Shown: positions 15,771-57,231, counted from the first letter of the stretch. The stretch: DNA of 64,000 bases from Bacteroidetes bacterium GWA2_32_17 (GCA_001769035.1 MENF01000100.1:1-64000), one strand, 5' to 3'. Notes: generated by a model not told the origin, from the letters alone. Translations and numbers: made by a program.

Positions 15771-16274
15771 TTAATAAAAACTTATTTCTAAATCATCAAT
15801 ATAAGCAACATCTCCTTTAGGCGACCATACATAAAACTTTATTACAGCATCATCAGGTAAGTCTTTTGAAAATATAATTTCACCTTTTACAAGAGTCCAT
15901 TTATTAATCGTTTTAATTTGTTCCGAAACATTAATACCAACCCATTGTAACTGACTGTTTTTTTTATCTGACCAAATTGAAGCTACCAAAGAAATCTCAT
16001 TTTTAATATTTTCAACTTTAACCCATACACTAAAATCAGCTTTTGTGAGTTTGTTTTTACTTATATCCTTAATGGGATACACAAAACCAAAACTATAAGG
16101 ATTTAACGAATCAATTTTAGAGCAAAGTTTTCCAGAATGTCCATCACCCGTATAAATACTATTATAGCCTTGTGTCCAACCTTCAATTGAACTATTAAAA
16201 GTCACTTTTTCATCATTTGAGCATGACGAAACAAATAACACAACTATAAATAAAAATGATAAATATAATTTCAT
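15771..16274 (-). CDS. Lipoprotein with predicted jelly-roll/CBM-like domain
   Basis: Lipobox VVLFVSSCSND; SGKLCSKID...FSVWVKVENI...VAYIDDLEISFY. Confidence 0.65.
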   Translation of the reverse strand: MKLYLSFLFIVVLFVSSCSNDEKVTFNSSIEGWTQGYNSIYTGDGHSGKLCSKIDSLNPYSFGFVYPIKDISKNKLTKADFSVWVKVENIKNEISLVASIWSDKKNSQLQWVGINVSEQIKTINKWTLVKGEIIFSKDLPDDAVIKFYVWSPKGDVAYIDDLEISFY

Positions 16275-16803: not shown

Positions 16804-18222
16804 ATGATTTTTAGCAGCAGCCTTTTTTTATTATATTTTTTGCCAATATTCCTTTTGACATATTTTTTAGTTCCAAAAAAACTTAAAAATATTACAATCT
16901 TACTGTTTAGCATATTTTTTTATAGTTGGGGAGCACCGAAGTTTATTTTTGTAATTCTGGGAACTACATTTCTCGATTTCCATCTGGTTAAACTAATGGA
17001 TAAAACAAAGAATGAAATTCATCGGAAACTAATGCTTACCCTTTCATTATCAGTAAATTTAGGATTATTGTTTTATTTTAAATACTCCAATTTTTTTATT
17101 GAAAATGTAAATCAGGCACTTTCAGTTTATGGAGGAGGCGAAATACATTGGACAAAATTGGTACTCCCTATCGGAATTTCATTCTATACTTTTGAAACTA
17201 TCACTTATGTAGTTGATGTTTACAGAAGAATTCATAAACCATTAAATAATTTTTGGGATTATCAGTTATATATTATTCTCTTTCCAAAGCTAATTGCAGG
17301 ACCAATTATTCGATATCACGATTTAGCCGACCAAATTACCAACAGACAAGAAAATGCAGATAACAGACTTACCGGGTTTTACAGATTTGTGTTAGGTTTA
17401 TCGAAGAAAGTTATTATTGCTAATGTTATGGGCGAACAAGCCGATAAAATTTTTGCAATGAATATTGCCGAACTTGATACATACACAGCTTGGATTGGAA
17501 TAATCTCATATACATTTCAAATTTATTTCGATTTTTCGGGATATTCCGATATGGCATTAGGTCTTGGAAAAATGATGGGATTTAAATTTCCTGAAAACTT
17601 TAATAACCCTTACATATCACAAAGTATTACAGAATTCTGGAAACGTTGGCATATTAGTTTAGGAAATTGGATGAGAAGTTATTTATACATTCCTTTGGGA
17701 GGAAATAGAGTAAACTCAAAATCCAGACTTTATATTAATCTTTGGTTGGTGTTTTTAGCTTCTGGTTTATGGCACGGAGCTTCGTGGAGTTTTGTGTTGT
17801 GGGGAGCTTATCACGGAATATTTTTGGTTTTAGAAAGAGCATTTTTACTGAAAGTGTATGAAAAAATAGGAAAATTTCCGAGTACAGTTATTACATTTTT
17901 CTTTGTTGTTATAGGGTGGGTTTTCTTTCGTATCGAAAACTTAAGCGATGGCTTTTTATTTGTAAAACGAATGTTTGCCTTTGATTTTGTTCCCAATATT
18001 TATTTTGGTACACAATACTTTACAATTTTAGTTTTAGCAATTATTTTCTCGTTTTTTGTTTATTTTAAATTTGGACAAAAAATACAAGATTTGATTTATC
18101 ATAAAGAATATCCATTATCACGACATTTATTGTTTTCTACATTAACATTATTATTATTATTAATTTCTGTAAGTACAATTACATCATCGGGATTCAATCC
18201 GTTTATTTATTTTAGGTTTTAA
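16804..18222 (+). CDS. MBOAT family O-acyltransferase (AlgI-like)
   Basis: VLPIGISFYTFETITYVVDVYRR; FPKLIAGPIIRYHDL; FWKRWHISLGNWMRSYLYIPLGGNR; ASGLWHGASWSFVLWGAYHG. Confidence 0.95.
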   Translation: MIFSSSLFLLYFLPIFLLTYFLVPKKLKNITILLFSIFFYSWGAPKFIFVILGTTFLDFHLVKLMDKTKNEIHRKLMLTLSLSVNLGLLFYFKYSNFFIENVNQALSVYGGGEIHWTKLVLPIGISFYTFETITYVVDVYRRIHKPLNNFWDYQLYIILFPKLIAGPIIRYHDLADQITNRQENADNRLTGFYRFVLGLSKKVIIANVMGEQADKIFAMNIAELDTYTAWIGIISYTFQIYFDFSGYSDMALGLGKMMGFKFPENFNNPYISQSITEFWKRWHISLGNWMRSYLYIPLGGNRVNSKSRLYINLWLVFLASGLWHGASWSFVLWGAYHGIFLVLERAFLLKVYEKIGKFPSTVITFFFVVIGWVFFRIENLSDGFLFVKRMFAFDFVPNIYFGTQYFTILVLAIIFSFFVYFKFGQKIQDLIYHKEYPLSRHLLFSTLTLLLLLISVSTITSSGFNPFIYFRF

Positions 18223-18225
18223 ATC

Positions 18226-19527
18226 ATGAGTAATACACTGTTAAAGCAAATAATTTTATTTGGATTTATTTTTTTACTTTTTGTTCCGTTAATTCAAAAA
18301 GAATTTCCGTTTTATGAAGAAAAACCGTTAAAAGGTGTCTTTACATTAACTGCAAAGCCCGATTCAATTTATAAAAATTGGTTTTCAGGTGAATATCAAC
18401 TAAAATATGAAAAATATTTTAATGATTCAATTGGATTTAGAGCATTTTTTATAAGATTATATAATCAAATTGAATTTTCGTTATTTAAGAATGTCTCTAC
18501 ACAATTTACAGCATTAGGAAAAGATAATGTACTTTATCAAAATTGTTATATTGAATCTTATTTAGGCAATGATTATATTGGAGAACATAAAATAATTTCA
18601 GAAGTAAAAAAAATAGAATTTGTTCAAAATGAATTACTGAAAAGAGGAAAGAAATTACTATACATTATAGCACCTGGTAAAGCTTCAATTTATCCTGATA
18701 ATTTCCCATTAAGTTATGATACAATATGCAAAAAGACATCAAATTACGATACCTATATAAAATATTTAAAGCAATATAAAATAGAATATTTTGATGTTAG
18801 AAATTATTTTCTGCAAATAAAACAAGCATCTAAATATCCATTGTTTCCCAAGAATGGAACTCATTGGAGTGGCTACGGAGTATCTTTGGTTGCAGATAGT
18901 TTATACAAAAGATTATCAGCTTTATTTAATAAGGATTTGGCAGAAATAGAGTTTTTGACAGGAAGAGAGGAAAGTATAAATTTAGACTTTACCGATAATG
19001 ATATGGGAAAGGCGTTAAATTTATTTTTTGAACTTTCAAATTGGAAAATGTATTATCCTAAAATTAAATTCCATTCAAAAATGAAATTAAAAGCACTAAT
19101 AATTGGAGATAGTTTTGCTCAAAGCTTTTTTGGTTTTGGACATTATTTCTACTACATTTTCTCCCAAGACTCTAAATACTTTTACTATTACGAAACTGTT
19201 TTTTGGCCAAGAATTGATGATGCTGATTTGCGAAATATTGAGAGCTATAATATTTCAGACCTTGTAAATGAAAATGAACTAATACTGGTAATATTAACTG
19301 ATCAGAATTTAGATAAAAACACATTTGGCTTTTTCGATGACTTATATTCTTTATTCAAAAATGGCGATTCAATAACTCATGAAGAAACAGAAAAAGTAAT
19401 TAAGAATATTAAATCAAATGAAAAATGGTTTAAAGCAATTCTAAGACAAGCTAAAGAAAGAAAAATTTCAGTTGATGAAATGTTAAGACGAAATGCAATT
19501 TTCACTATTAAAAACAGAAAAAAATAG
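18226..19527 (+). CDS. AlgX/AlgJ-like SGNH-type polysaccharide O-acetylation protein with C-terminal helical module
   Basis: FSGEYQLKYEKYFNDSIGFRAFFIRLYNQIEFSLF; FPKNGTHWSGYGVSLVADSLYKRL; KALIIGDSFAQSFF; module at C-terminus. Confidence 0.8.
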   Translation: MSNTLLKQIILFGFIFLLFVPLIQKEFPFYEEKPLKGVFTLTAKPDSIYKNWFSGEYQLKYEKYFNDSIGFRAFFIRLYNQIEFSLFKNVSTQFTALGKDNVLYQNCYIESYLGNDYIGEHKIISEVKKIEFVQNELLKRGKKLLYIIAPGKASIYPDNFPLSYDTICKKTSNYDTYIKYLKQYKIEYFDVRNYFLQIKQASKYPLFPKNGTHWSGYGVSLVADSLYKRLSALFNKDLAEIEFLTGREESINLDFTDNDMGKALNLFFELSNWKMYYPKIKFHSKMKLKALIIGDSFAQSFFGFGHYFYYIFSQDSKYFYYYETVFWPRIDDADLRNIESYNISDLVNENELILVILTDQNLDKNTFGFFDDLYSLFKNGDSITHEETEKVIKNIKSNEKWFKAILRQAKERKISVDEMLRRNAIFTIKNRKK

Positions 19528-19566
19528 TTTTTACAAAAATAACACAAAATTGCAACTAATTTTATT

Positions 19567-21372
19567 TTGATGACTAAAATATTAAAACAAATTATACTTA
19601 TTATTATAACAATATGTCTTTTTATTCCATTAATTCAAAAAGAATTTACATTTTTTAAAGAAAAACCGTTAAAAGGAGTCTTTACTTTAGCTGAAAAGCC
19701 CGATTCAATGCTTGAAAATTGGTTTTCCGGAGAATATCAACTAAAATATGAAAAATATTTTAATGATTCGCTTGGATTTAGGCCTTTTTTTGTGAGAATA
19801 AATAATCAAATAAGTTTTAGTTTATTTAATACTATAACAACAGATAATGCTATTTTAGGAATTGACAAAGTTGTTCTTGATGAAAAATACATTTTTGCAA
19901 ATTTTGGATTAGATTTTTTAGGAAACAAATATCTTGAATCTCAAGCTGATAAATTAAAATTCGTTCAATACAAATTAAAAACAGATTACAATATAGATTT
20001 GTTAGTAATATTTGCTCCATCAAAAGTGAGTTTTTTTGCTGATAAAATACCCGAAAAATATTCTAAAATTAAAAATGATTCAACCAACTATTCGGGATTT
20101 GTAAATGAATTCACAAAGAAAAAAATAAACTTTATAGATTTTAATAAATGGTTCGAAAAAATTAAAGATACATCTGAATTTGAATTATTTCCAAAATATG
20201 GTATTCATTGGAGTTATTATGGAGCCATTCTCGCTACCGACTCATTAATTAAATATATGTCAAATAATAAAAGCTATAGCATGCCGAAGTTAACAATACG
20301 ACAAATTATATTAACTGATTCGATGGCTTTTGTTGATAATGATGTTACAACTTCAATGAATTTACTCTTTAATCCAAAGTATTCAAAAATGCCATACACA
20401 AAATTTGATATTGAAAAGTCATCGAACAAAAATATTAAATTACTAGTAATTGGCGATAGTTACTATAATGTAATTTTAAACACTGGAATAATGCAACAAA
20501 TTTGTTTAGCAACTGATTATTTATATTACAATAAAACTTATAAAATTAATAATAAAGAAAATAAGATTGACTACAATAATTATTTTAATTTAATCAAGAA
20601 GTACAACTATATTATACTTTTAAATACTGAATTAAATTATTGGAATTTAGGGCATGGATTTATTGAGTTGATGTATAGAGAGTTAACACCAGAAATGAAT
20701 ACTTTGAGAGAAGATGAACTATTTACATTTTATTATAAAAGTGAAAAAATTGACTCAATTAAAGCAAGAGAAAAAGCAAAAAACATTATAAATAATACTC
20801 TTAAAGATTATTTTTTATACAAAGATTCGAGAATTGAATTGCTCAAAAAAAGATTACTTTACAGTTTTATAAACAAACAAAATCTTATAAACAAAGCAAA
20901 AGAAAGAAGAGTAAGTCTTGACGAAATGGCTTATTTAGATGGAAGATATCTGTTTTATGATAATCTTTTTTTAAACAAAACAAGAGAAGAAGAAATTAGA
21001 AAAAACATAGAATTAAATATTCTTATTGAAAATATAAAAAACGACAAACAAAAGCTTGACAAACTCAAATTAATATCTGATAAAACTAAAATCCCATTTA
21101 ATGATGTATTGCTTCGATATGCAAAAAATTCGATGAATGGAAATGATAATGAAAACGAATTACAAAAAAATAATAGTAAAAAAATTGAAATTAAACAAGA
21201 GAATGTAAGCGGCAAATACAACGAAAATGAAATACAAGTTGTTATTGCTCGAATTAAAAACAATAAAGTATGGTTCGATAATATTGTTCAACAAGCAAAA
21301 GAACAAAATATAAGTACCGCCGATATGTTGCGAAAAAATGCCATATTCACTATAAAAAATAGAAAAAAATAA
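19567..21372 (+). CDS. Second AlgX/AlgJ-like protein, C-terminal extension with further module-like copies
   Basis: FSGEYQLKYEKYFNDSLGFRPFFVRINNQISFSLF; FPKYGIHWSYYGAILATDSL; LLVIGDSYYN; C-terminus RIKNNKVWFDNIVQQAKEQNISTADMLRKNAIFTIKNRKK. Confidence 0.8.
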   Translation: MMTKILKQIILIIITICLFIPLIQKEFTFFKEKPLKGVFTLAEKPDSMLENWFSGEYQLKYEKYFNDSLGFRPFFVRINNQISFSLFNTITTDNAILGIDKVVLDEKYIFANFGLDFLGNKYLESQADKLKFVQYKLKTDYNIDLLVIFAPSKVSFFADKIPEKYSKIKNDSTNYSGFVNEFTKKKINFIDFNKWFEKIKDTSEFELFPKYGIHWSYYGAILATDSLIKYMSNNKSYSMPKLTIRQIILTDSMAFVDNDVTTSMNLLFNPKYSKMPYTKFDIEKSSNKNIKLLVIGDSYYNVILNTGIMQQICLATDYLYYNKTYKINNKENKIDYNNYFNLIKKYNYIILLNTELNYWNLGHGFIELMYRELTPEMNTLREDELFTFYYKSEKIDSIKAREKAKNIINNTLKDYFLYKDSRIELLKKRLLYSFINKQNLINKAKERRVSLDEMAYLDGRYLFYDNLFLNKTREEEIRKNIELNILIENIKNDKQKLDKLKLISDKTKIPFNDVLLRYAKNSMNGNDNENELQKNNSKKIEIKQENVSGKYNENEIQVVIARIKNNKVWFDNIVQQAKEQNISTADMLRKNAIFTIKNRKK

Positions 21373-21442
21373 ACTAATTTATTATTAATGAGTTTAAGGG
21401 ATATTTTTGAGGCAATATCCTAATTCTTACCCATATTGCCAA

Positions 21443-23284
21443 CTATTGCAAAGCATTAATTTCTTTATCTAACCAGGTAATTCGCTTTTCAATCCAGGTT
21501 TTTAAATATTCGATATCTTCAGCATAAGTTTTACCATTAAAGTAATTTGGGGACAACTCACTTCCACTAATCTTCCATTTTATGTCGTTCCGTTCAATTG
21601 CTGCATCAATTAACTCAATATCGTTATCAATAATTAAGTTTATGTGGTTGGGTGTAATTATATTTTTGCGAAGTTCCGACCATCTATATTTTAAATGCTT
21701 TCTGAATGTTTCATCTTTCATTAAGCTTTTCCACCAAAATGGTATATAATTAGAACTATTATATATCCAACCCTCCGGGTTATATCCGTCTAAATAACTA
21801 GTAAGTCCTAACGAAAAGTTAAAATCCCATAATGGTCCCATAGTCAGTTTCCCGTTTTTACTGTCTTTATCTTTGTATATAAATGTACTTAATCTGTAAG
21901 CATCTATATTTTTAGAAAATTCGTTTATTATAAAATAGTCAACAAAAGAATTAATATCAATAAAATCAATTATATCGTTTTTGTTGTAATATAGAGATGT
22001 TTCAAAACGGCAAATGTAATTTGCTATACTTTTTTTTTGTATTTTAGACAATTCACTTGCTTTTGGTTCGTGAAATCTTAAGTAAGATTTATTTTGCAGA
22101 TGTTTTTCTAAAGGGTATTTTGAATATATAAATTCTTCGTCGCCTCTGTCAAATTGTAATAAGTAACCACCTGTTAAATCATCTCCAATAGTATCTTTAA
22201 TATTCATTTTGGAAATATTTACCATGTTTTCAGAAATTTTTACTTTTTGCATTAATAAATATATTCCTCTATAATCGTTATTAATAACTAATTCGCAGTA
22301 TTTAGATTTGGGTGCCAACAATCCCATTTCACTTCCAAGATTATATATTAATCTGTCTCTTAGTAACGTTCTATCAAGATATGGTCCATATAAAACCCAG
22401 TCCGAATTTTTTGGCAATCCCAATAACGATTCTTTTTTCTTATTTTTAACTTTTAAAGCAAATGATTTCTTCAAATATGATTGTGATGTTTTTCCTCTAA
22501 TTTCTACTGCAATTTTACCAAAAAAGTCATTATATTTATTACCAATGCAATTATCCCCAGTATTAATTATCCCCATTTCAGCTAATATTTTTGGTTCATC
22601 TACAATAATTTGATTATTTGTATTTATTATTATTATCGGAATATTTGAATGAGTATAGTAGGCTGGTGGTTTAAAATCAGGTTCCCTTTTTTCAAAATTT
22701 TTATTCTCTTCTGAAAAGCCAATTGAAAATTTTATTTTACTTAATTTCTCAACAATTTTATTTTTATTTAAAATCTTAATAATTAAAGTGTTATTCCCTT
22801 TTTTAATACATTCTTTAAATGTTTTTTCATTTAAAAAGAAATTTTGTTGGCTGTAACAATCAAAAATTGGAACACGACTAGAATTGAAATCGTGAGGGTA
22901 CGAGTTATCGCGTATTGTACCATAATAGTTATGAGCAATATCAACATTATTCAAGAATGCACTAAACAATAAATTATATGGGCTTTGTAATAATGCTTCT
23001 TTAGATGAAGTTAAATCATTAATGTTGAGGTTTGTTTTACAAAACATAATTTTATGTGAATCAACTAGTTCTTTTTCTATTAATTCAAAATTAGAAGATG
23101 TAAAATGTTTCCAATTTGTTTGTTCTGAAATATTGCCTTCATATAACGAATCAACTAAAACATATTCCCAATTTTTTTCGTTACTAAACACTATTTTCCA
23201 ATTATCAATTTTGGCTGAATTACATGATAATAGTGGAATTACAATTAAAATAATAGTTATGATTCTATAGTATATAATCATCAA
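21443..23284 (-). CDS. CotH kinase family lipoprotein
   Basis: IAVEIRGKTSQSYLKKSFALKVKN; LYGPYLDRTLLRDRLIYNLGSEMG; YRGIYLLMQKVK; MGPLWDFNFSLG. Confidence 0.88.
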   Translation of the reverse strand: MMIIYYRIITIILIVIPLLSCNSAKIDNWKIVFSNEKNWEYVLVDSLYEGNISEQTNWKHFTSSNFELIEKELVDSHKIMFCKTNLNINDLTSSKEALLQSPYNLLFSAFLNNVDIAHNYYGTIRDNSYPHDFNSSRVPIFDCYSQQNFFLNEKTFKECIKKGNNTLIIKILNKNKIVEKLSKIKFSIGFSEENKNFEKREPDFKPPAYYTHSNIPIIIINTNNQIIVDEPKILAEMGIINTGDNCIGNKYNDFFGKIAVEIRGKTSQSYLKKSFALKVKNKKKESLLGLPKNSDWVLYGPYLDRTLLRDRLIYNLGSEMGLLAPKSKYCELVINNDYRGIYLLMQKVKISENMVNISKMNIKDTIGDDLTGGYLLQFDRGDEEFIYSKYPLEKHLQNKSYLRFHEPKASELSKIQKKSIANYICRFETSLYYNKNDIIDFIDINSFVDYFIINEFSKNIDAYRLSTFIYKDKDSKNGKLTMGPLWDFNFSLGLTSYLDGYNPEGWIYNSSNYIPFWWKSLMKDETFRKHLKYRWSELRKNIITPNHINLIIDNDIELIDAAIERNDIKWKISGSELSPNYFNGKTYAEDIEYLKTWIEKRITWLDKEINALQ

Positions 23285-26200
23285 TTATTTAATAAAAAAA
23301 TTATTATTATCACCTGGAGTATAATTATTTTGTTTATAATCCCAGTTTTTGCTGTTAGAGTTATCGAATAATGGGGTTTTTAACTGTAAGCTACCTCCAG
23401 TTTCAATATTTACAACAGGCCAGGGGGCAGTATTTTTAAATGAAACAAAATCTATTTTATTGTCAAATTTATCAAAAAGAATTAATTCATTTTCAAAGGC
23501 ATTAAATTCTAAATTGGTATAAATATATTTACAAGTATAATAGTTATGTTTAAATAACTCATCGAATTTTAAAGGGCTATTATAAATAATAACATAACTA
23601 TATGGTAAAACTTTAGTTCCAATAGGAAAAATTAATTCTTTTTTGTTAAAATGTAGTTTCCATTCCGAAATATCTAATTCAATATTATTTGGATTATATA
23701 ATTCAACCCATTCGCCTGAATTTGAGTTGCTTGGTATAAGATAATTTATTTCATTTATTACTAATTGCGATTCGAATCTTGAGAATGCTCCAATATCACT
23801 ATTTGTTCCATCATAATTTAATATTGAAGGGATACCGGTATTAATGCATGGAGATTTTTCTTTAAGATAAAAATTGTTTCCTGATTCTGAAATAAATGCA
23901 GGTTTATTGTAAATATTAGCTGTACCTGAAATTTGTTTTGAATCACAAAGCGAATACGAAATTGAAATACTAGATAAATTATCAACTTTAATATCTTCTT
24001 TATTTGACTTTGAAATTATTGAGTTTTTTACAACAGCATTTCCGCCAACTATATACCCTTCTCTTTTTTTGTAAGCTACAATAGAAACATTGTTATTATA
24101 AAGTGTGTTATTTGTTATAAATGCAGTTGAGCTGTCTTTAATTGCAATGCCTACATTATTTCCAACAATAAGGTTTTTTTCTACATATATGTTTTTTGAA
24201 GCACCATATTGTTCTGTTCCTATTGAAATGGCCTTATCTTTAGAATTTAATAAAATATTGTTTGTTATTATAACATTATAACATCCATTTAAATCTATAG
24301 CATCGTCGGGCGAGTTTTCAACTTTGTTTCCTTTAATTACTCCATCTGTTACATTAATAAACTCAATAGCATCGGGTAAATTATAAAACACGGAATTTTC
24401 AACTAAAGAATTTGCATAGTTAATATCCATTCCTTCACCTTTTCCCTTACTAGTTAAATAATTATTTTTACAAGTAAATTTACCTTGATGAACCCAAACA
24501 AGGCATAATCTTCGTTCCTGACTAATATGTAATTGTTTGTTTGTAATAATTATTTTGCTATTTTCAATATAGAGATTAGTGTATTTTGAATTAACCACAC
24601 CATCTTCAATTATAACACTTTGCAAGACACAACTATCTGATGCATGTTCAAAATATATAGAACTCCAACTACTTTTATTGTTTATTGGCCTAAAAATTAC
24701 TGGTTTTTTCTCAGTTCCTTTTGCAATTATTTGTCCTTTAACCCATAAAGTAGCATCAGGTTTAAAAATAATAGTTGCTCCTTCGTTAATTTGTATTTTT
24801 ATTCCCGGCTTAACAATTACATCGCCGTCAATTAAATAAGGTGAATTTTCCTCAGTAATAATTATATTTTTATTTATTTCGCCTTTCAATACTACTGGTT
24901 TTTTTACATAAAATATGTTTTTTGTATTAAACCCTTCGGTGTAATATTCTTTGTCGTTAGCTACTACTTTCCAAAAATATTTACCTTCAGATAATTTATT
25001 AGTATATGTATAGCAAGTGTCTTTAAGATTTTTAACTATAATTGTTTTTAGTGAGTCTTTAAATAAAAAATCTTTACTTAAATAAAAATCATAATTTATT
25101 TCTTTTCCTTTAGGGCTAATTGATTGACTCCATGAAAAAAAAGGATTCTCTACAATAATATCATAAGTTTTATTTAATTTAAAACTTAGTGGCATTTTAT
25201 TAATCTGGTCTAATAATAATTTTGAATTATTTTTAAAAAAATCTCTTTCGTTATTAATTGTGTTTTTCCATGTTTTTAGGTCTTTAATTTTATCTGTTTT
25301 GTCTTTTTCTACCGACTCAGCAAGCGTGGTTTCTAAATTAGTTATTGTTGATTCCATATAACTATAATTTACATATTTTTCACTTAATTCTTTAATCATG
25401 CTTTTTATATCTGCAAAAATTTCTTTATCTAGCAACATCCTTTCTATAAGAACATTATTTGATTCCCAATCACTAGAAGTTTGATGATAGATGTATGGTT
25501 TCCAGTTATAATACGATAATGTTTTATCCATATCCCAAGGAAATATTTCCCATTTTCCAGTTCCATAAGTATCATGATATAAATAATAATTGTGATAGTA
25601 AGTGCTTCCATTAGCAAGCAACATGTTTAAAGCTACAAGCTTAATTAATTTATCGTAAACAAAAGTGTTTCTAACAAATGCAGTAAAATCTTTATCACTA
25701 ACTGAATTTATTTGGTTAATTAAATATATTAAATCGTTTTTATCTAAATCTTTATTGGTTTTCTTTTCCCAAACTACATCAACATTATCAAATAAACTTA
25801 AACAAGCACCATCTTTCTTTGCTTTATATAAGTTTCCTTTTTCGCTTAAATTATGTTCTTTTAAAAATTTATTGTCAATGTTTTCAACCATTAAATACAA
25901 TCCATAAAATTTATTGTTCACATATAACTTTGCGTAACTTGATGTAAAACATTTAATACCCGCATCTCTCATAATCAACGATGATAAAAATTGTCGGATA
26001 TAACTTTTATCGGTATATTCTGCATTAAAATTAAAAACTTTAGTGTTATCACCAGGAAAAGGGTCTGATAATTTTACCTTAATAGACTTTTTTGGTTCTT
26101 CGCGAGATGTGTCGCCTCTTACTCGCAACTTTGCTTTTTTGATTGTATCATTACCACAGGATATGGTAATTGGAATGTATAAATCTTCTTTATATTTAGA

Positions 26201-26326
26201 AAAAATATTGTCTAAATCGTTTTGTTTACAAACTATATGATATTCTTTTATTTCAAAAATATTTTTTTCTTTTCCACAAGCAAATAATACAAATGAAAGC
26301 AGAATTAGTAGTAAAAAATTTCTCAT
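23285..26326 (-). CDS. CotH kinase, right-handed beta-helix, lamin-tail-like domain lipoprotein
   Basis: KLRVRGDTSREEPKKSIKVKL; KFYGLYLMVENID; WEIFPWDMDKTLSYYNW; beta-helix (GVIKGNKVENSPDDAIDLNGCYNVIITNNI); LVINEINYLIPSNSNSGEWVELYNPNNIELDISEWKL. Lipoprotein start at internal Met 26326. Confidence 0.85.
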   Translation of the reverse strand: MRNFLLLILLSFVLFACGKEKNIFEIKEYHIVCKQNDLDNIFSKYKEDLYIPITISCGNDTIKKAKLRVRGDTSREEPKKSIKVKLSDPFPGDNTKVFNFNAEYTDKSYIRQFLSSLIMRDAGIKCFTSSYAKLYVNNKFYGLYLMVENIDNKFLKEHNLSEKGNLYKAKKDGACLSLFDNVDVVWEKKTNKDLDKNDLIYLINQINSVSDKDFTAFVRNTFVYDKLIKLVALNMLLANGSTYYHNYYLYHDTYGTGKWEIFPWDMDKTLSYYNWKPYIYHQTSSDWESNNVLIERMLLDKEIFADIKSMIKELSEKYVNYSYMESTITNLETTLAESVEKDKTDKIKDLKTWKNTINNERDFFKNNSKLLLDQINKMPLSFKLNKTYDIIVENPFFSWSQSISPKGKEINYDFYLSKDFLFKDSLKTIIVKNLKDTCYTYTNKLSEGKYFWKVVANDKEYYTEGFNTKNIFYVKKPVVLKGEINKNIIITEENSPYLIDGDVIVKPGIKIQINEGATIIFKPDATLWVKGQIIAKGTEKKPVIFRPINNKSSWSSIYFEHASDSCVLQSVIIEDGVVNSKYTNLYIENSKIIITNKQLHISQERRLCLVWVHQGKFTCKNNYLTSKGKGEGMDINYANSLVENSVFYNLPDAIEFINVTDGVIKGNKVENSPDDAIDLNGCYNVIITNNILLNSKDKAISIGTEQYGASKNIYVEKNLIVGNNVGIAIKDSSTAFITNNTLYNNNVSIVAYKKREGYIVGGNAVVKNSIISKSNKEDIKVDNLSSISISYSLCDSKQISGTANIYNKPAFISESGNNFYLKEKSPCINTGIPSILNYDGTNSDIGAFSRFESQLVINEINYLIPSNSNSGEWVELYNPNNIELDISEWKLHFNKKELIFPIGTKVLPYSYVIIYNSPLKFDELFKHNYYTCKYIYTNLEFNAFENELILFDKFDNKIDFVSFKNTAPWPVVNIETGGSLQLKTPLFDNSNSKNWDYKQNNYTPGDNNNFFIK

Positions 26327-26467
26327 TTTTTTAAATAAAATTTTGTTAAACTCAAAAAATATAACATAAACTACTAATTTAAACTGTTTTATAATTTCGC
26401 TATTATAGAGTTTCGAATTTAACAAACTTAATTAAGAAAAAATAAGAACGCTTAAAAATTGAGATTC

Positions 26468-26893
26468 TTAATTTTCTCTTTGACTAATTACATAATTTGC
26501 AGATCTTATCAGCATGGAATCTACACTTATTTGTCTTTCTTTAGCTTGAGCTTTAACATTTTCATACCATTCTTTATTATTTTTGATAATATTAATTTGT
26601 GCTTGTACTTCATTTTCGGTTTCATCAACAAAACCATTTTGTTTTGCCATATATTTTGCATTTTTGGATAAAGCAGAATCAACAGACACACCCATTTCTT
26701 CTGCTTGTTTTTTTACTTCAATCATCCATTTTTCATCATTCTTTATTCTTTCTAAATAATAATTATAATCTTTAACAACTTCCTCTTTTAAAGTAGAATT
26801 ATTTACAGTGCTTTCAGCTTCAGGTGTAGATTCCCCACAACCAATAAAAACAAAGAGCATAATACTAATGACAGACAATTTTATATTACTCAT
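26468..26893 (-). CDS. Small lipoprotein made of two copies of the helical module
   Basis: Lipobox FVFIGCGES; repeats RIKNDEKWMIEVKKQAEEMGVSVDSALSKNAKYMAKQN and IIKNNKEWYENVKAQAKERQISVDSMLIRSANYVISQREN. Confidence 0.75.
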   Translation of the reverse strand: MSNIKLSVISIMLFVFIGCGESTPEAESTVNNSTLKEEVVKDYNYYLERIKNDEKWMIEVKKQAEEMGVSVDSALSKNAKYMAKQNGFVDETENEVQAQINIIKNNKEWYENVKAQAKERQISVDSMLIRSANYVISQREN

Positions 26894-27030
26894 AATTAAT
26901 TAAGTTAAATTATTTAATTTATTTTACGTAATTAAACGCGTGCAATATTACAATCAATTTTTAAATTAAAAAAAAATCTTTATATAATCTGATATGTCTA
27001 CTCATGTATCTAGTTGTATCTAAAGTAGCC

Positions 27031-27137
27031 ATAAAATTGCAAATAGGGATAGGACAAGTTGCCGGATATTAATTTGCAGTTGGTAAATTAATTGTTTGAG
27101 ATAATAACATAGCATCAATATTATATACACACAAGGA
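27031..27137. repeat. ~107-bp direct repeat R, copy 2
   Basis: ataaaattgcaaatagggataggacaagttgccggatattaatttgcagttggtaaattaattgtttgagataataacatagcatcaatattatatacacaca. Confidence 0.75.
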
Positions 27138-27320
27138 GTCAGTATTATTTGTTGGACAATATGCATAAGTAACGTGCATTAAATAATATCCTACTGCGTT
27201 GCTATAAAAGATTTTAAATCCTCGTTCCGCATGAAGCTGAACTGCGGTTTAAAATTTTTATGTGCCTTGTAGAAACTTATTTTCAACACATTACTAACAT
27301 GTTTTATTTTTAAAAGATTT

Positions 27321-29837
27321 TTATTTGTTTTGATTACTGTTTTCAATATCTACCATATATTCTGCATTGAGTCTAATCATTTCTTCCAAGTTAATTTTTC
27401 TTTTTTTAGATTGAATAATTACATTATTTAACCAATCAGGAGTATTTTTTATTTGGTCTATATAAAAATTAACTCTATTTTCCCGATTAATTAATTGTTT
27501 ACTAAAATTATCACTTAAAAGGATTTGATGATTGTTTTTAAATAATTCAGATTGATTATTATTTAATGATAGAATCGGACAATAAACATTAGTGTTAGCT
27601 TCCCGAATAAGTAAATCATCAATATACATGGTATCATTAGAAATAGCTCTTGTATCAATAAAAAGATTGCCAGTATTTTGTAATTTATAAACTTTAAATT
27701 TTAATTCAACTAAACTCCAATCACCAACTACTATTTCACAATATCGAGGGTCGGTATAGTAATTCCAATATCCTTTATTTTCCTGAGGGTCATATTCATC
27801 TATACATACAAACACACACGATCTTTCTTCTTTAGCATTGTTATACCAAAAACTTAATATATATTCCTTATTTGGATCAAAGGTGTTTGCTTCATATTTG
27901 AATAGATAACTTACGCCTGAACGGGGTAACGTAAAGCACCCTTTACCTCTGAATTTAATTTTAGAAGAATAATTATCAAAATTATTATAATAGATTAAAC
28001 CAGTTGTGTCAGATGTATATAGTCCCTTTCTATTAAAAAGAAATTGATTTAATGACATGTATTCATCAATTTCTTTTTGAACATTATATTCAAATAATTT
28101 CTCATAAGATATTTCATATAAGCTTATTAGCGAATCCTTTAATAATAAATCCGCTTTTGAAAGAATAGCTTGTTCATAAAATGTAAGAGGTTCATTTGAA
28201 AAAGAAATAAGAAATGGTTTTCTTAATTTAATATCACTGGCTATTTCTTTTGAATAAAATGCTGGAGCTAATACTTGAAGCTCTTTTTTGGCTTCGGTCA
28301 TAGAGGTTCTTGAAAGCATTGCACCAAGAACAGGTAATTTTGTGTAATATGATAGAACAAGGGTGTTTCGTAATGAATTGTGTGTTGCTTCTCGTTTAAA
28401 CCACTCGGAACCATTAAGAAAGAAGGGTAATGGTATAATAGCTTGATATTTAGATGTTTTTATGTTTTTTAATGCTCTTTTATAGTAATCGGGCAAATTA
28501 TCTTTTAAAAACAGATTATGTTCTTTAGTAATAAACCCCGAGAAAAAATAATGATAAGGTAATCCTTCATAAATATATGAGAGTGGAAGAAGTATAACAA
28601 TAAAAAAGCCAATATGTTTTCTTTGTTTAAACAACATAAAATTGTAAAATTTATTTATAATAAATACACAATAAACCGTGATTATAAAATAAAATAGCCA
28701 TGCAAATCTTCCTAAAGCTCTAAATTGTTTTAAAAACGGTGCCCAATCAAGAATAAACATCATCCCCCATCTAAATGGATAAGCCATTGAAAATAGAACA
28801 AAAATGACAGAAACGATAAGAATTACAATTATTTCGTTTGGAAACAATGTTTTTTTAATTTGATTTTTTTTCTTTAATATTAAAAGAATAATCGAATAAA
28901 AAATTACTGCAATAATTATAACATCGCTTAAAAAGCCAATGTATGCCATACCCTCACCATGTTGGTCGCTAAACAAATGAATTTTATCAAGGATTGGTCT
29001 TAATGGAGGAAAATATGGAAGAAAAACAGTATCCCATGTTGCATTATAAATTAGTAAACCAACAGGAGTAGTAGGTCTGTTTATATGAGTTTCTATTACT
29101 ATTACTATAATTGCAAAAATCAATAAAGGAACAAAAACCATAAAAATTAACGAAAGATAACCTTTCCAGTCTTTTTTTAATTTTTTAAACCCCAGTAAAT
29201 AATCAACAACCCAATATGCTAGTGCAAACATAACTAACACCATCCCAAGATATGAATGAATAAAAAACCAAAAAAGTGCCATTACTGAATACAATATACT
29301 CCATTTAATTTTATTTTGTGAATGATAAATTTTAATAATTATGTACCATGCTAAAGGAATTACAAAAGAATATGCAAGATGATAATGACCATATAGTCTG
29401 AAAATTTGAGGAGATAAAATTGTTATTGAAAATGCTCCAAAAACTGCTAAAAATTTATGAACTTTATAATGTAACAAAATAAGATATAAGAAATAAGCAC
29501 ATAAAACATAAGAAAAAATAATTAAAAAATTCATTATTCCTATTGCATAATTGCCAACTAAAGGGAATAATGCAGAAACTAATTTAACTGGTATTCCTAT
29601 TGATGGTTGAGCTGCTGCAAAAATAACATTATCATAATAAGGATAATTCATCCCTTTAAATTCAATATAAGAACTATCATTATTTATATGAAAAGCATAA
29701 GTATAATATGCTTGTATAGCATCACCTTCTGTATTGAACATATAGGAATTTGGTGATAAGATAACTTTATAATAAAATGTAAATAAAAATGAGATAGTAA
29801 GAAGAATTAATATTAACTGCGGAAGTCTCTTTTTCAT
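27321..29837 (-). CDS. Large polytopic membrane protein (YfhO/GT-C-like topology) with CBM-like domain and C-terminal helical module
   Basis: Many TM helices then soluble region; NLFIDTRAISNDTMYIDDLLIREA; C-terminus YIDQIKNTPDWLNNVIIQSKKRKINLEEMIRLNAEYMVDIENS. Confidence 0.6.
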   Translation of the reverse strand: MKKRLPQLILILLTISFLFTFYYKVILSPNSYMFNTEGDAIQAYYTYAFHINNDSSYIEFKGMNYPYYDNVIFAAAQPSIGIPVKLVSALFPLVGNYAIGIMNFLIIFSYVLCAYFLYLILLHYKVHKFLAVFGAFSITILSPQIFRLYGHYHLAYSFVIPLAWYIIIKIYHSQNKIKWSILYSVMALFWFFIHSYLGMVLVMFALAYWVVDYLLGFKKLKKDWKGYLSLIFMVFVPLLIFAIIVIVIETHINRPTTPVGLLIYNATWDTVFLPYFPPLRPILDKIHLFSDQHGEGMAYIGFLSDVIIIAVIFYSIILLILKKKNQIKKTLFPNEIIVILIVSVIFVLFSMAYPFRWGMMFILDWAPFLKQFRALGRFAWLFYFIITVYCVFIINKFYNFMLFKQRKHIGFFIVILLPLSYIYEGLPYHYFFSGFITKEHNLFLKDNLPDYYKRALKNIKTSKYQAIIPLPFFLNGSEWFKREATHNSLRNTLVLSYYTKLPVLGAMLSRTSMTEAKKELQVLAPAFYSKEIASDIKLRKPFLISFSNEPLTFYEQAILSKADLLLKDSLISLYEISYEKLFEYNVQKEIDEYMSLNQFLFNRKGLYTSDTTGLIYYNNFDNYSSKIKFRGKGCFTLPRSGVSYLFKYEANTFDPNKEYILSFWYNNAKEERSCVFVCIDEYDPQENKGYWNYYTDPRYCEIVVGDWSLVELKFKVYKLQNTGNLFIDTRAISNDTMYIDDLLIREANTNVYCPILSLNNNQSELFKNNHQILLSDNFSKQLINRENRVNFYIDQIKNTPDWLNNVIIQSKKRKINLEEMIRLNAEYMVDIENSNQNK

Positions 29838-29909: not shown

Positions 29910-29917
29910 TACTTTTG
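29910..29917 (+). promoter_or_regulatory. Bacteroidetes-type -7 box
   Basis: TACTTTTG matches TAnnTTTG, just upstream of the glycosyltransferase start. Confidence 0.45.
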
Positions 29918-29935
29918 CTAAATAAAAATATTATT

Positions 29936-30868
29936 ATGACTCAACAACAGCCAAAAATATCTATTATCATACCTTGTCATAACGAAGAGGGTAATATAGA
30001 ATTTCTATATTCTAAATTAAAGCAATCAATTATTGCTTTCCCATCGCATGAAATTATTTTTGTAGATGATGGAAGTACTGATAAAACAATCTTGAAAATT
30101 CGATTAATAGCTAGTAAAGATGCGTTTGTTAAATATATTTCTTTTTCAACTAATTTCGGACATCAAAATGCATTAAAAGCAGGTCTTGATTATTCTTCCG
30201 GCGATTGTGCCATTAGTATGGATGCTGATATGCAACACCCCCCTGAATTGATTCCTTTGTTAATTGAAAAATGGAAAGAAGGCTTTGAGGTGGTTTATAC
30301 TATCAGAAAGGAAGAAGAAAATATTCCATTTTTTAAAAAAGTTACTTCTACCCTTTTTTATAAACTTGCTGGGAAATTTTCAGAAACAAAGATATATCCG
30401 GGTGCTGCTGATTTTCGCTTATTAGATAAAAAAGTCGTTGATGAGATAAAAAAATTAAAGGAGAATTTTCTTTTTTTTAGAGGGCTTGTTAATTGGATGG
30501 GGTTTTCTCAATTTCCTATTGAATTTAAAGCTGAAGTAAGATATTCTGGTAAAACAAAATATTCTTTTAAACGAATGTTTAAATTTGCTTTGTCGGGGAT
30601 AACATCTTTTAGTACAAAACCTTTACAAATTTCAACAATCATAGGATCTATCATAGCATTATGCGCATTTATTTATGGTATTTATGCAATTTCAATAGCT
30701 TTATTTACTTATAACGTAGTACCCGGGTGGACATCTATGTTAGCTAGTGTTCTTTTTATTGGTGGTTTGCAGCTTATTATGATTGGAATATTAGGAGAAT
30801 ATATTGGTAAGCTCTTTATTGAAAATAAAAGAAGACCAAATTATATAATTAGGGAAAAAAATTTTTAA
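29936..30868 (+). CDS. Glycosyltransferase family 2 (GtrB/ArnC/DPM1-like)
   Basis: ISIIIPCHNEEGNIEFLYSKLK; FVDDGSTDKT; ISMDADMQHPPELIPLLIEKWKEGFEVVYTIRKEEENIPFFKK; two C-terminal TMs. Likely start MTQQQPK at 29936. Confidence 0.93.
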   Translation: MTQQQPKISIIIPCHNEEGNIEFLYSKLKQSIIAFPSHEIIFVDDGSTDKTILKIRLIASKDAFVKYISFSTNFGHQNALKAGLDYSSGDCAISMDADMQHPPELIPLLIEKWKEGFEVVYTIRKEEENIPFFKKVTSTLFYKLAGKFSETKIYPGAADFRLLDKKVVDEIKKLKENFLFFRGLVNWMGFSQFPIEFKAEVRYSGKTKYSFKRMFKFALSGITSFSTKPLQISTIIGSIIALCAFIYGIYAISIALFTYNVVPGWTSMLASVLFIGGLQLIMIGILGEYIGKLFIENKRRPNYIIREKNF

Positions 30869-45894: not shown

Positions 45895-47043
45895 TTATCC
45901 ATACACACTCGTGCTAATACTAAACAATGGAAGGTACATTGCAACAAGAATAATTCCTACCAAAATACCTACGAAAATAATTAATATGGGTTCTAGAAGG
46001 CTGCTAAGCATGCTAATTTTATGTTCTAACTCATCGGAATAATGCTTATTGAGTTTATCGAATATTTTATCGAGTTGGTTTACTTCTTCACCAACACGTA
46101 CTAATGAAATTACACGTTTTTCAAAAATCGGGAATTTATTCATGCTTTCATATAACAAAGAACCTTTTAAAATATCCTGCTGTATTTTTTCAAGTGCTTT
46201 TTCGAAGGGATAAAATCCAATCATATTTTGCACAAGTTCGATGGATTTTAGCATGGGTGTATGCGAACCCATAAGCATAGACATTGACTGGCAAAAACGT
46301 GATATATAAATTTTCTTTGCAATTGGTCCTAAAATGGGTAATCTCAAAATTATTTTACTTTTTAATTTTCGATACCAGTCCTTTTTCCGTTGCAAATAAA
46401 TAAGTAGTACAATTCCCAAAATAATAATTATAAACCATCCTATATTTTTAGAAAACATATTGGAAACATCAATAATAAATTGTGTTAATGCAGGTAATTT
46501 TCCATTAAAGCGTTTAAATACATCTACAAACATAGGTACTATAAAATTCATCATAAAAATTACCGCAATAACAGCAGTTAAAAGAACCATTATTGGATAT
46601 GTAAATGAATTTACTATTTGCCTTTTTTGCTTTACTTTTTTATTAAGAAATTCAGCCAAATCTTCGAGAACTTCATTTATGCGTCCACTTTCTTCCCCAA
46701 TTTTTAAGCTGAAATGTTCATAAACAGTAAATTTTCCCGAATCCATAATAGCTTCAGACAAACTTTTTCCGTTAATTACCTGTTTGTATATAGATTCGAA
46801 AAGAGCTTTATCATTTTTTTTATTTTGTTCTTCAATCACTAATTCTAAAGCTGTTTTTACATCAATTCCTGAGGAAAGTAAAGTACTAAGTTCAGAAAAG
46901 AAATTCTCCTTTTTTTTGTCGCTCAGCTTATTTCCGAAAAGAGAAATATCGCGTGAAAAGAAATCGGCTAATTCGTTCTTTTTTTTCGCTTGCCCTATCT
47001 CTTTTTCGCGGTTTGGTTTTATTTGCTTTATATCAATGCTCAT
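45895..47043 (-). CDS. T2SS/T4P inner-membrane platform protein (GspF/PilC)
   Basis: LSTLLSSGIDVKTALELVIEEQ; YEHFSLKIGEESGRINEVLEDLAEFLNKKVKQKRQIVNSFTYPIMVLL; RVGEEVNQLDKIFDKL; LLEPILIIFVGILVGIILVAMYLPLF. Confidence 0.95.
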   Translation of the reverse strand: MSIDIKQIKPNREKEIGQAKKKNELADFFSRDISLFGNKLSDKKKENFFSELSTLLSSGIDVKTALELVIEEQNKKNDKALFESIYKQVINGKSLSEAIMDSGKFTVYEHFSLKIGEESGRINEVLEDLAEFLNKKVKQKRQIVNSFTYPIMVLLTAVIAVIFMMNFIVPMFVDVFKRFNGKLPALTQFIIDVSNMFSKNIGWFIIIILGIVLLIYLQRKKDWYRKLKSKIILRLPILGPIAKKIYISRFCQSMSMLMGSHTPMLKSIELVQNMIGFYPFEKALEKIQQDILKGSLLYESMNKFPIFEKRVISLVRVGEEVNQLDKIFDKLNKHYSDELEHKISMLSSLLEPILIIFVGILVGIILVAMYLPLFSISTSVYG

Positions 47044-47515
47044 TGTTTATTGGGTCTATATAAAATAATAAATCTCTTGAATATTCTTTAGTTATATGCA
47101 ACGGAAAAACAAATTCTCCCTGCTTAATGTTTATCAATATATCGTTAACGTATTTATTTTCGTTATCTAAATAATTTACTTCAATTTCCTGAACTTTGTT
47201 ATAAAAAGTATCAGTTACTTCACTTTTTGTTCTTATAACAAAATTACCTTCAAAACTGTAATTGATAGTTTTTCCGGCTTCAAAAACCAAAGTTAAATCC
47301 GAATTATCGCCATGTACTTCATACGATTTATCCATATCTGAACGAAATGTTGAAACCAGCATTAGCAACTCACTATCCATTTTGCCCTTTTCTTTAAAAT
47401 CAAGATAATATTGATTTAAATTCATATAAATAGTAAGAGCAATACCAATGACAATGGAACTGACAATCATTGCCACCATCAATTCTATCATGGTAAATGC
47501 CTTTAATTTTTTCAT
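47033..47515 (-). CDS. Pseudopilin (GspJ-like)
   Basis: MKKLKAFTMIELMVAMIVSSIVIGIALTIYM class III signal. Confidence 0.85.
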   Translation of the reverse strand: MKKLKAFTMIELMVAMIVSSIVIGIALTIYMNLNQYYLDFKEKGKMDSELLMLVSTFRSDMDKSYEVHGDNSDLTLVFEAGKTINYSFEGNFVIRTKSEVTDTFYNKVQEIEVNYLDNENKYVNDILINIKQGEFVFPLHITKEYSRDLLFYIDPINNEH

Positions 47516-47517
47516 TT

Positions 47518-47895
47518 TTATTTGGGACTTGGATTTGTTATTTCTGCTGTTTGAACTCTTATTATTTCCTCACGTTCTATAATGGGTTTATTCTCTAATG
47601 TAAATGCTGTAATTTTTAGAATTTTCAAGGATTTTGAGTTTGGATATTCTTCAGTAGTTTTTTTAATCAACATTCCAGGGAAATTAAATTCTTCATCGAG
47701 GTAATTCAGGTCTTTTTTTGCTTCGTTTAAAATATTTCCTGTATAAATAATTGCTTCTAATTTTTTTCTGTTTTTTCCCATTCCAGATAAGTTTACAAAT
47801 GCTAGTGAAGCAAGACTTGAAATAACTAAAATAATAATCATTGAGACGAGTACTTCAATCAACGTAAATGAAGGTAATTTCTTTATTGCAACCAT
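47518..47895 (-). CDS. Pseudopilin (GspI-like)
   Basis: KLPSFTLIEVLVSMIIILVISSLASLAFVNL. Confidence 0.85.
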   Translation of the reverse strand: MVAIKKLPSFTLIEVLVSMIIILVISSLASLAFVNLSGMGKNRKKLEAIIYTGNILNEAKKDLNYLDEEFNFPGMLIKKTTEEYPNSKSLKILKITAFTLENKPIIEREEIIRVQTAEITNPSPK

Positions 47896-49136
47896 CTTAT
47901 TACTTCTTTTTTATTACTTGATTCGAGTAAGCTTATTCCTGTAAAATACTTCGATAATCCTTCAAAATTTACGGTAGCATTTAATAAGTGATTTTCATAC
48001 ACTGATGAAGGTGTTGAAAGGATGAATCGTTTGCAATATAAGCTGCCATTTACACATCCTTTATGATCGACTAACGAATTACAATATACTTGTCCATTTA
48101 TTATAACATCTTTCTCAATTTTAAGAATAGAACTGTTTTTTTGCTGTTCTTTTTCACGAAATAAAACAAGTGCTCCTGATAATTCGGTTTTTTCACCAAT
48201 GCTTATAAAAGATGAAGTTTTTGAATCTTTTTTATTCAATAATGCTATTACACTTGGGTATATCAACCGACAATCTTCTTCAATTTTTGCTGAATCTGTA
48301 ACAAATGCCTGTAATGTTCCCTGAAAATTATTTTCTATAATAACATAAGGTGCATATATTACAACATCACAAATTTGTGCAGATTCTTTTATCTCAATTC
48401 CTTTTGTTGATTTAATAATTACATTCCCTGATATTATTTTATTTTCTAAAATAATTATTTGTTCCGAATAGACATAAAGTGTTTTTTTGTTGAAATCATT
48501 AGAAATAGTATCTTTTTTCTGAATTGATTCAAACCATATCAAACTATCATGGGTACCTGGTTTTCCTTCAAGCATTGCAACATTATAATCAACCATACTT
48601 TTATTCAATTCGGGTAAGTTTTTTTCGCTTTGTTTTATTTCGCCTTCCACGAATTTTGTTCCTGAAAAACTACTGCCTTCGATATAAGCTCTTTTTATAC
48701 CTTTTTTTGGTAACCAGCATGTTCCTTTTAGTAAAGTTTTACCACATACATTTAAATAATCGTCCTGATCGCATAAGTACAAAGCCACTTTATTACCACT
48801 GAAAATATCATCACCAATTAGGGCTTTTTTTGAATAATTAAATCTGTTCCACTTTCCACTGCATACTATTATCTGGTAAAAACCCCATATATTTTTTTGG
48901 AAAGTAATTTCCCTTACTTCATCGTCAAATAAATTAATTTTATTTTGGTTTAAAGTTTCAGGTATTTCGAGCACAATATTCATTGAAGAATTCACATCGC
49001 ATACAAGCCTTTCCTTTATAAATTCATCATCGAGATAACGATTCTGATAAAATGTCCAAAGAATAAAAAAACCGGATAATAATGCGATGATAATTGATAT
49101 AAAAACTGCGTAAAATAGTGCGGCGGCTTTTATCAT
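47883..49136 (-). CDS. Membrane-anchored protein in GspK-like position with predicted beta-helical region
   Basis: N-terminal hydrophobic segment MIKAAALFYAVFISIIIALLSGFFILWTFYQNR; repeating short beta-strand pattern (KIISGNVIIKSTKGIEIKESAQICDVVIYAPYVIIENN). Confidence 0.5.
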   Translation of the reverse strand: MIKAAALFYAVFISIIIALLSGFFILWTFYQNRYLDDEFIKERLVCDVNSSMNIVLEIPETLNQNKINLFDDEVREITFQKNIWGFYQIIVCSGKWNRFNYSKKALIGDDIFSGNKVALYLCDQDDYLNVCGKTLLKGTCWLPKKGIKRAYIEGSSFSGTKFVEGEIKQSEKNLPELNKSMVDYNVAMLEGKPGTHDSLIWFESIQKKDTISNDFNKKTLYVYSEQIIILENKIISGNVIIKSTKGIEIKESAQICDVVIYAPYVIIENNFQGTLQAFVTDSAKIEEDCRLIYPSVIALLNKKDSKTSSFISIGEKTELSGALVLFREKEQQKNSSILKIEKDVIINGQVYCNSLVDHKGCVNGSLYCKRFILSTPSSVYENHLLNATVNFEGLSKYFTGISLLESSNKKEVIRWLQ

Positions 49137-49151
49137 ATTTTCGTTAAAGAA

Positions 49152-49940
49152 TTAATGGTCAATTTTAGTGTCGGAATTTGTGTTATTGTTGCTTATGTTT
49201 TTCTGTTCTTTATCTTTCTTTTTCCAGAAAGGTTTTTTGTCAGAGTTATTGCTCTTTGTTTTTTCTTCTTTTATTTTATTTTCTTTTGAATTCTCTTTAT
49301 TTTTCTCTTTAACTTTCGAATTGTTTTTGTCATTTTCAGGCTTTTCTTTCTTCACTTTTTCTTTTTTTTCTTTAGAAGGTTTCTCATCTGCAACCTTAAC
49401 AGATTTAATTTCTGGTTCTTTAATAATTTCTTTATCTTTTATAAATTTCTTTATTATTGTTGAATCAGGAGAAACAATAGTACACTTACCCTGTTTGAGA
49501 CCTTTTTTGTAATTTGTTGTAGTGATAATTTTTCCAGTTTTGTCAATAGCTATTTCTTTGCCATCTTTCATCCCATTTTTCATGTTTTCTATAAGACTTA
49601 AACCACCTTTTTTATTCCAGGTTTTCCATTCTCCTTTTTTCAAACCTTTTTTAAAGAATCCTTGCGTCATTAAGTTTTTATCTTTATCGAAAACAAAATA
49701 CTTTCCATCTAAAAGTTTTCCGTAATATCCTCCTGCATTTTTTTCAATTTTATCGGAATTATACCAATAGTAAACAAAATTGTTTTTAGGTTTGATGTTT
49801 ACATTTTTAAGTCTTATTATAGCTTTTACTGTAGAATCCTGATTATTTACGATAATTTCAGTTCGTTTCATTTTAGGTGGGTTTTGTGCAAAACCAACGA
49901 AATTGATAAACAGTAATAAAAGGGATAAAAATGATTTCAT
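49152..49940 (-). CDS. YwqK/MORN-repeat-like protein with Lys/Glu/Asn-rich tail
   Basis: KLLDGKYFVFDKDKNLMTQGFFKKGLKKGEWKTWNKKGGLSLIENMKNGMKDGKEIAIDKTGKIITTTNYKKGLKQGKCTI; tail KEKKEKVKKEKPENDKNNSKVKEKNKENSKEN. Confidence 0.75.
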   Translation of the reverse strand: MKSFLSLLLLFINFVGFAQNPPKMKRTEIIVNNQDSTVKAIIRLKNVNIKPKNNFVYYWYNSDKIEKNAGGYYGKLLDGKYFVFDKDKNLMTQGFFKKGLKKGEWKTWNKKGGLSLIENMKNGMKDGKEIAIDKTGKIITTTNYKKGLKQGKCTIVSPDSTIIKKFIKDKEIIKEPEIKSVKVADEKPSKEKKEKVKKEKPENDKNNSKVKEKNKENSKENKIKEEKTKSNNSDKKPFWKKKDKEQKNISNNNTNSDTKIDH

Positions 49941-49944
49941 ATTA

Positions 49945-55074: not shown

Positions 55075-55086
55075 TCTTATTTTTCT

Positions 55087-57052: not shown

Positions 57053-57231
57053 TATATGTTAATTAAGTTTTCAATGTGATTATTAACAAATTGATTTTCA
57101 GTTATTACCCCGACCCTAAAGGGAGAACTTAAAATCAATTTACAATCTTCAAGGTTTGGGGTAAGCAAATTGATTTTCATAATATTTAAATCTTCTTTAA
57201 TTATATTAAAATTCATTAATTAAAAACCTTT

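Follow-up and report, generated by a model that had tools for sequence, protein, structure and literature searches.

A 64,000-nt stretch of DNA from Bacteroidetes bacterium GWA2_32_17 (GCA_001769035.1, MENF01000100.1:1-64000), hereafter the window, encodes a module of ~40 residues that is repeated in four neighbouring genes and that constitutes an uncatalogued domain, one that defines, in Bacteroidota, a variant of MBOAT-SGNH systems and of related systems acting on envelope glycans. Five strong copies were found (genes and proteins are named below by their first coordinate). Copy 1 (19399..19524, plus strand; E 1.8e-22), copy 2 (21244..21369, plus strand; E 5.8e-22) and copy 5 (27336..27461, minus strand; E 1.5e-21) form the C-termini of the 18226, 19567 and 27321 open reading frames (ORFs), respectively, and copies 3 (26639..26755; E 7.2e-21) and 4 (26471..26596; E 4.5e-22) are the first and second module of a small lipoprotein encoded on the minus strand (26468). 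That is, three of the four carrier genes have a module copy at the extreme C-terminus.

Detection of the module copies

A hidden Markov model (HMM) built from the five full copies recovered each of them at an independent E-value (iE) of about 1e-21 to 1e-23 in a six-frame search of the window. With leave-one-out models, the left-out copy scored E 8e-7 or better and unrelated ORFs of the window ~0.1 or worse. An independent HMM made from 90 copies, all from genomes other than that of the window, found all five copies at iE 9e-14 to 8e-16 (8e-16, 9e-14, 6e-15, 4e-15 and 4e-14 for copies 1 to 5). The leave-one-out and other-genome models rule out chance similarity or low-complexity bias as the source of the module. 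The residues common to the five copies are I4, K5, W10, Q17 and A33 (module numbering).

Two degenerate candidates lie on the plus strand inside the 19567 ORF. One (20881..20964) matched the other-genome HMM at iE 1.8e-4 and was found at E 0.0014 in the search of the own genome. The other (21025..21126) was not significant with the window HMM (iE 0.72) and gave no match with the other-genome HMM, the one point in its favour being its position, which corresponds to that of tandem copies in related proteins. The tally for the window is therefore five certain copies, one probable and one unproven: of the "up to seven copies" announced by a first-pass annotation of this DNA, five and probably a sixth (20881..20964) hold, and the copy at 21025..21126 is not supported. 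All the peptides quoted in that annotation were present in the translations where it had placed them. A profile search of the rest of the 4.77-Mb assembly revealed no other convincing copy.

No Pfam or NCBIfam family matched the module above the curated cut-off, there was no PDB-sequence match, and Foldseek returned no significant PDB fold match (best E 2); the open-access literature yielded no description of such a module. Because our searches of Pfam, NCBIfam and the PDB did not find the module, and because the machinery that it decorates is already known, we regard it as an uncatalogued domain attached to machinery of a familiar kind. A ribbon-helix-helix fold (Arc/CopG) consists of an N-terminal beta strand and two helices; it was rejected for the module, which has three helices without a strand and gave E 0.09 with RHH_1 and a Foldseek E of 9 over 26 residues with Arc. 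The C-terminal domains of type IX secretion are beta-rich, and that candidate was set aside.

Fold and conservation

AlphaFold predicted three helices per module copy with high confidence. In the AlphaFold2 (AF2) model of the 18226 protein, the helices of copy 1 span residues 385-397, 399-411 and 416-431 (predicted local distance difference test score, pLDDT, mostly 84-96), and in that of lipoprotein 26468 two three-helix units are formed by residues 43-52, 54-67 and 71-85 and by residues 91-105, 107-119 and 124-140 (pLDDT 90-98). The view of the first-pass annotation that the module is real, helical and assignable to no named family is thus borne out by the predicted helices and the empty Pfam, NCBIfam and PDB searches, none of which gave the match to a described domain that would have argued otherwise.

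Across relatives, I4, W10, A18 and A33 are near-invariant, position 14 is I or V, and position 35 is aromatic (W, Y or F) in 96% of the sequences, Trp being as frequent as Tyr. Helix-cap residues are common (D/N7 and S/T24-x-D/E26) and the remaining positions vary freely; the sequences diverge fast (~30% identity), and the net charge spans -6 to +8. Judging from helix periodicity, a conserved core seems to be surrounded by a variable surface, on which position 35 could be exposed.

MBOAT and SGNH proteins

The gene at 16804..18222 (plus strand) encodes an MBOAT O-acyltransferase of the AlgI/PatA/DltB type (PF03062, 2.6e-31) whose C-terminus, FIYFRF, matches the FxYxxF motif kept in 103 of the 104 MBOATs of related loci. 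In PatA, this motif takes the acetyl group and passes it to the SGNH partner (PMC12148441). Two AlgX/AlgJ-like SGNH proteins are encoded further along the same strand: 18226 (18226..19527; PF16822, 1.3e-12), with an N-terminal membrane anchor and one C-terminal module, and 19567 (19567..21372; PF16822, 3.9e-9), which belongs to the other deep clade of the SGNH tree. The AF2 model of the 18226 protein, made from an alignment with 41 relatives, had a pLDDT of 90.6, and its Foldseek matches in the PDB included AlgJ (4o8v, E 2.9e-9), AlgX (4knc), the AlgKX complex (7ula) and PatB1.

In an alignment of 41 SGNH proteins (18226, 19567 and 39 relatives), the catalytic residues His213 and Ser296 are present in 41 and 40 sequences, respectively, and the AlgJ signature PxK and HW is retained. 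The Asp of the DxH motif is required in AlgX and AlgJ. In the aligned proteins, the catalytic Asp of DxH/DxxH is absent, position -2 being Gly in 39 of the 41 and Asp in one, and position -3 mostly Tyr or Thr; the near-invariant Asp257/Asp259 might substitute for it. Since this Asp is missing, membership is claimed for the MBOAT-SGNH gene pair and the fold, not for a proven canonical triad: on those two grounds the window pair belongs to the MBOAT-SGNH acyltransferase systems, and acetyl transfer is its predicted activity. AlgX carries a C-terminal carbohydrate-binding module (CBM) at residues 348-463 (PMC9734138). No CBM match was found in the 41 SGNH relatives, and in 18226 the SGNH domain is followed by the three-helix module instead.

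Occurrence and range of carriers

With a 33-copy profile (E <= 0.001), the module was found in 94 of the 295 genomes examined from the order and in 75 of the 295 examined from the class. A phylum sample of 297 genomes, almost all very complete and seemingly ordered by genome quality, contained no module except in the own genome, and the distribution is therefore patchy. Named matches outside the Bacteroidales fell in Saprospiraceae, Chitinophagaceae and Fluviicola.

From 40 extracted loci and the window, 71 carrier proteins were collected. SGNH carriers have one to four tandem C-terminal copies; the first usually starts directly behind the SGNH domain, at about residue 390-400, and between the end of the last and the stop codon there are mostly 0-14 residues. 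GH16-like carriers are lipoproteins of ~650-700 residues with one internal copy at residues 156-236, and their C-terminal part matched PF00722 weakly and in one protein only. This family (loci L101, L102, L104, L105, L107, L108, L115, L117, L133, L134 and L139) is mostly lipoprotein-like and barely or not recognised by Pfam. Multi-pass carriers bear the module at the C-terminus, several being PMT_2 glycosyltransferases, and the set further includes one carrier fragment with a CBM_4_9 match and one CotH protein (locus L100). Lipoproteins made up of two modules are rare, with three seen (window, L100 and L101). A second census, which took the best loci of each genome as an independent set, comprised 41 AlgX-like proteins, 7 GH16-like proteins, 6 GT-C glycosyltransferases of known reference type and 23 others; most of these 23 were fragments, additional multi-pass proteins or the three lipoproteins. 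A new type of carrier was observed at L090:364-1656; this protein of 431 residues combines an N-terminal membrane anchor with a C-terminal module and has no Pfam or NCBIfam match.

Among the SGNH proteins of the named loci, 64 of 91 bear the module. Of the others, some stop at about residue 380-400 (Flavobacteriales, Crocinitomicaceae), and some continue into a tail without a profile match (Hymenobacter). In five of these loci (L149, L150, L155, L157 and L161; Hymenobacter and one Flavobacteriales), the tails hold W/A-spaced helical stretches that score below significance and may be very divergent modules. On the SGNH tree, the module has been lost or gained at least nine times.

Association with MBOAT and AlgX-like genes

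Among 60 relatives, the module is present in 15 of the 21 genomes with PF16822 and in 9 of the 39 others (Fisher P 4e-4). An MBOAT gene lies within 10 kb of a module in 12 of 29 contigs, compared with ~1% expected by chance under an assumed mean genome size of 3.5 Mb; the carriers are thus not scattered without regard to surface-polysaccharide loci. MBOAT genes also stand beside the SGNH family in 69 of 80 named loci, which had been fetched with the SGNH family, and some carriers have no MBOAT nearby.

The window arrangement recurs almost whole in L100, from another family of the class, where one strand encodes, in this order, a lipoprotein, an MBOAT, an SGNH protein, a multi-pass protein and a second SGNH protein. 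All of these genes except the MBOAT bear modules, and a convergent CotH pair lies opposite, one member with a module. On the SGNH tree, the two window proteins belong to different deep clades, and the same split is seen in the pairs of L100 and L144; the two-SGNH design, as in AlgJ plus AlgX, has therefore been kept. The expected co-occurrence with MBOAT/AlgX loci was thus observed, and the combination of lipoprotein and CotH recurs in at least one other lineage (L100). The assignment by the first-pass annotation to "an O-acetylation complex" proved too narrow, because PMT_2 glycosyltransferases and GH16-like lipoproteins are among the carriers, some of whose loci lack an MBOAT.

Possible roles of the module

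We tentatively favour the view that the module is a small stand-alone three-helix domain acting as a periplasmic docking unit. We infer the periplasmic location from the topology of the membrane anchors, and the docking function and the adaptor role of the lipoprotein likewise go beyond direct observation; the carriers' tails probably dock the enzymes together or onto the polymer that they modify. In such a scheme, enzymes tailoring a surface polysaccharide would carry the module as an addition, usually at the very C-terminus and in many cases in tandem. These enzymes would be MBOAT-dependent SGNH O-acetyltransferases, GT-C glycosyltransferases that depend on polyprenyl-phosphate sugars, GH16-like lipoproteins and, in some cases, CotH proteins. 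By binding one another or a shared partner, the modules would keep these enzymes at one assembly site, and the two-module lipoprotein would serve as a membrane-anchored bivalent adaptor, with a role comparable to that of AlgF/AlgK in alginate acetylation. Consistent with this, one and the same module is found on unrelated families of envelope-glycan enzymes, presumably on the same side of the membrane; two-copy, module-only lipoproteins occur in three lineages, in one case (L100) within a near-copy of the window cluster; the MBOAT proximity is strong and is joined by the genome association with AlgX-like proteins; and the one to four tandem copies at the extreme C-terminus of SGNH carriers start at a nearly constant place. 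There is also precedent in alginate acetylation, where AlgF mediates protein contacts without binding polymannuronate (PMC10641220) and AlgK is a further docking example (PMC9734138).

Several observations weigh against docking. No binding partner of the module was found, the own genome holds only the window copies, and 27 of the 91 SGNH proteins have no recognised module. Moreover, the rarity of module-only lipoproteins (three seen) means that they cannot be a general hub. A genome-specific "dialect" of module sequences was considered as proof of a common partner and abandoned: at first 0 of 500 shuffles reached the within-genome resemblance, and 45 of 500 did so without the window genome and one other (G829). 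Because it is carried by these two genomes and is not general, this resemblance is not used as support.

The main alternative, possible though rather unlikely in our view, is that the module binds the polysaccharide (or peptidoglycan) and so keeps the enzymes on their substrate, replacing the AlgX CBM, with tandem copies giving avidity. It does follow the SGNH domain at the place of that CBM, its carriers are glycan-active enzymes from several families, repetition in tandem is a typical trait of units that bind cell walls or glycans, and the kept aromatic residue at position 35 could be surface-exposed. However, glycan binders built as all-helical units of 40 residues are unusual, a CBM_4_9-like domain is separately present in some carriers, and there is no conserved polar ligand site; the range of net charge argues against a common ligand and disfavours polyanion binding in particular. 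Conservation of the core and caps, together with the variable surface and charge, fits a domain of scaffold type better than a pocket for a common ligand. Docking is therefore preferred over polymer binding, because module-only lipoproteins are bivalent, because the module sits at the very C-terminus of unrelated enzymes and because a conserved ligand site is lacking.

The same conservation, limited mostly to core and helix caps, the rapid divergence and the at least nine losses or gains would also suit a structural add-on that has no partner, that is, a C-terminal stabiliser, a spacer or a periplasmic quality-control or turnover tag spread by domain shuffling. We consider this improbable, as stabilisation alone would hardly account for module-only lipoproteins, for the internal position in GH16-like proteins or for the repeated presence of unrelated carriers in the same loci. 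Least probable by far is an acyl shuttle resembling DltX, which would carry the acyl group, or pass it on, between the MBOAT and its SGNH partner: the module does sit on that partner and its kept aromatic residue is often Tyr, but Trp is as frequent there, and carriers without a nearby MBOAT exist. This idea was rejected because the MBOATs, including that of the window, have their own FxYxxF motif, so that the module is probably not needed for the chemistry of acyl transfer.

The module offers a searchable sequence tag linking enzyme families that are not known to cooperate (MBOAT/SGNH acetyltransferases, PMT-like glycosyltransferases, GH16-like lipoproteins and CotH proteins), and it points, in many uncultivated Bacteroidales and in some Saprospiraceae, to the loci of a surface polymer. 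A Pfam-style model of it would aid the annotation of many "hypothetical" envelope proteins. If the docking view is true, the module marks a previously unnoticed cell-surface assembly.

Other genes of the window

The lipoprotein gene (26468..26893, minus strand) encodes a signal/lipobox, a linker and the two modules, and has relatives at L100:6809-7237 and L101:6897-7310. The fourth carrier (27321..29837, minus strand) is a multi-pass GT-C/YfhO-like protein with eight hydrophobic segments (~8 transmembrane), a jelly-roll-like region and the C-terminal module. The stretch between its membrane part and the module resembles a CBM_4_9-type jelly roll below the Pfam cut-off; a relative in L109 has a CBM_4_9 match, also sub-threshold. 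By eye, a small lipoprotein at 15771-16274 resembles the same jelly-roll region, again below the Pfam cut-off. A module-free gene at 29915..30868 (plus strand) encodes a GT2 glycosyltransferase resembling polyprenyl-phosphate-sugar synthases, a possible donor supplier for the 27321 protein. Genes of this kind adjoin module-bearing glycosyltransferases in L108, L109, L125 and L139 as well.

Two CotH-family proteins are encoded on the minus strand between the SGNH and lipoprotein genes, and both are module-free: one at 21443..23284 (PF08757, 5.9e-61), whose relative in L100 (L100:14081-16060) has a module at residues 624-655, and one at 23285..26425 that combines CotH, beta-helix and lamin-tail regions (PF08757, PF13229 and PF00932). 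The acetylation operon on the plus strand and the CotH-CotH-lipoprotein genes on the minus strand converge tail to tail at 21372/21443. Farther away, at 45895-58427 (minus strand), the ORF translations suggest a type II secretion/type IV pilus-like gene set (prepilin peptidase-like, GspE/GspF-like and secretin-like proteins and pseudopilins) in this Bacteroidota genome.

Comparison with known systems

Weak local helix-loop-helix likeness to ribbon-helix-helix/Arc proteins, SHOCT, designed dTor repeats and YdbL arises through an IS-x-[DE]-x-[ML] cap box; in contrast to these small helical modules, which PDB profiles matched piecewise only, the module lies in envelope proteins and is not DNA-binding. 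It is conceivable, though we hold it doubtful, that a previously undescribed three-helix "address" domain brings acetyltransferases, GT-C glycosyltransferases, glycanase-like lipoproteins and CotH proteins together in a single periplasmic assembly for tailoring polysaccharide, in which lipoproteins made only of modules serve as bivalent adaptors; this would make the domain an envelope counterpart, in Bacteroidota, of the dockerin principle.

As in PatA/PatB and DltB/DltX/DltD, an FxYxxF MBOAT adjoins the gene for a membrane-anchored SGNH partner, whereas in loci of the window type other carriers join in; PatB and DltD are not known to have this C-terminal module. Like the alginate machinery of Pseudomonas (AlgI-AlgJ/AlgX with AlgF and AlgK), the window combines an MBOAT with two SGNH paralogues of AlgJ/AlgX fold, and the lipoprotein in its cluster recalls AlgK. 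The window lipoprotein differs, however, in being module-only, and no tetratricopeptide repeat (TPR) protein was recognised in the cluster; compared with the alginate machinery, helical modules stand in place of the AlgX CBM, and Gly replaces the DxH Asp in 39 of the 41 aligned SGNH proteins.

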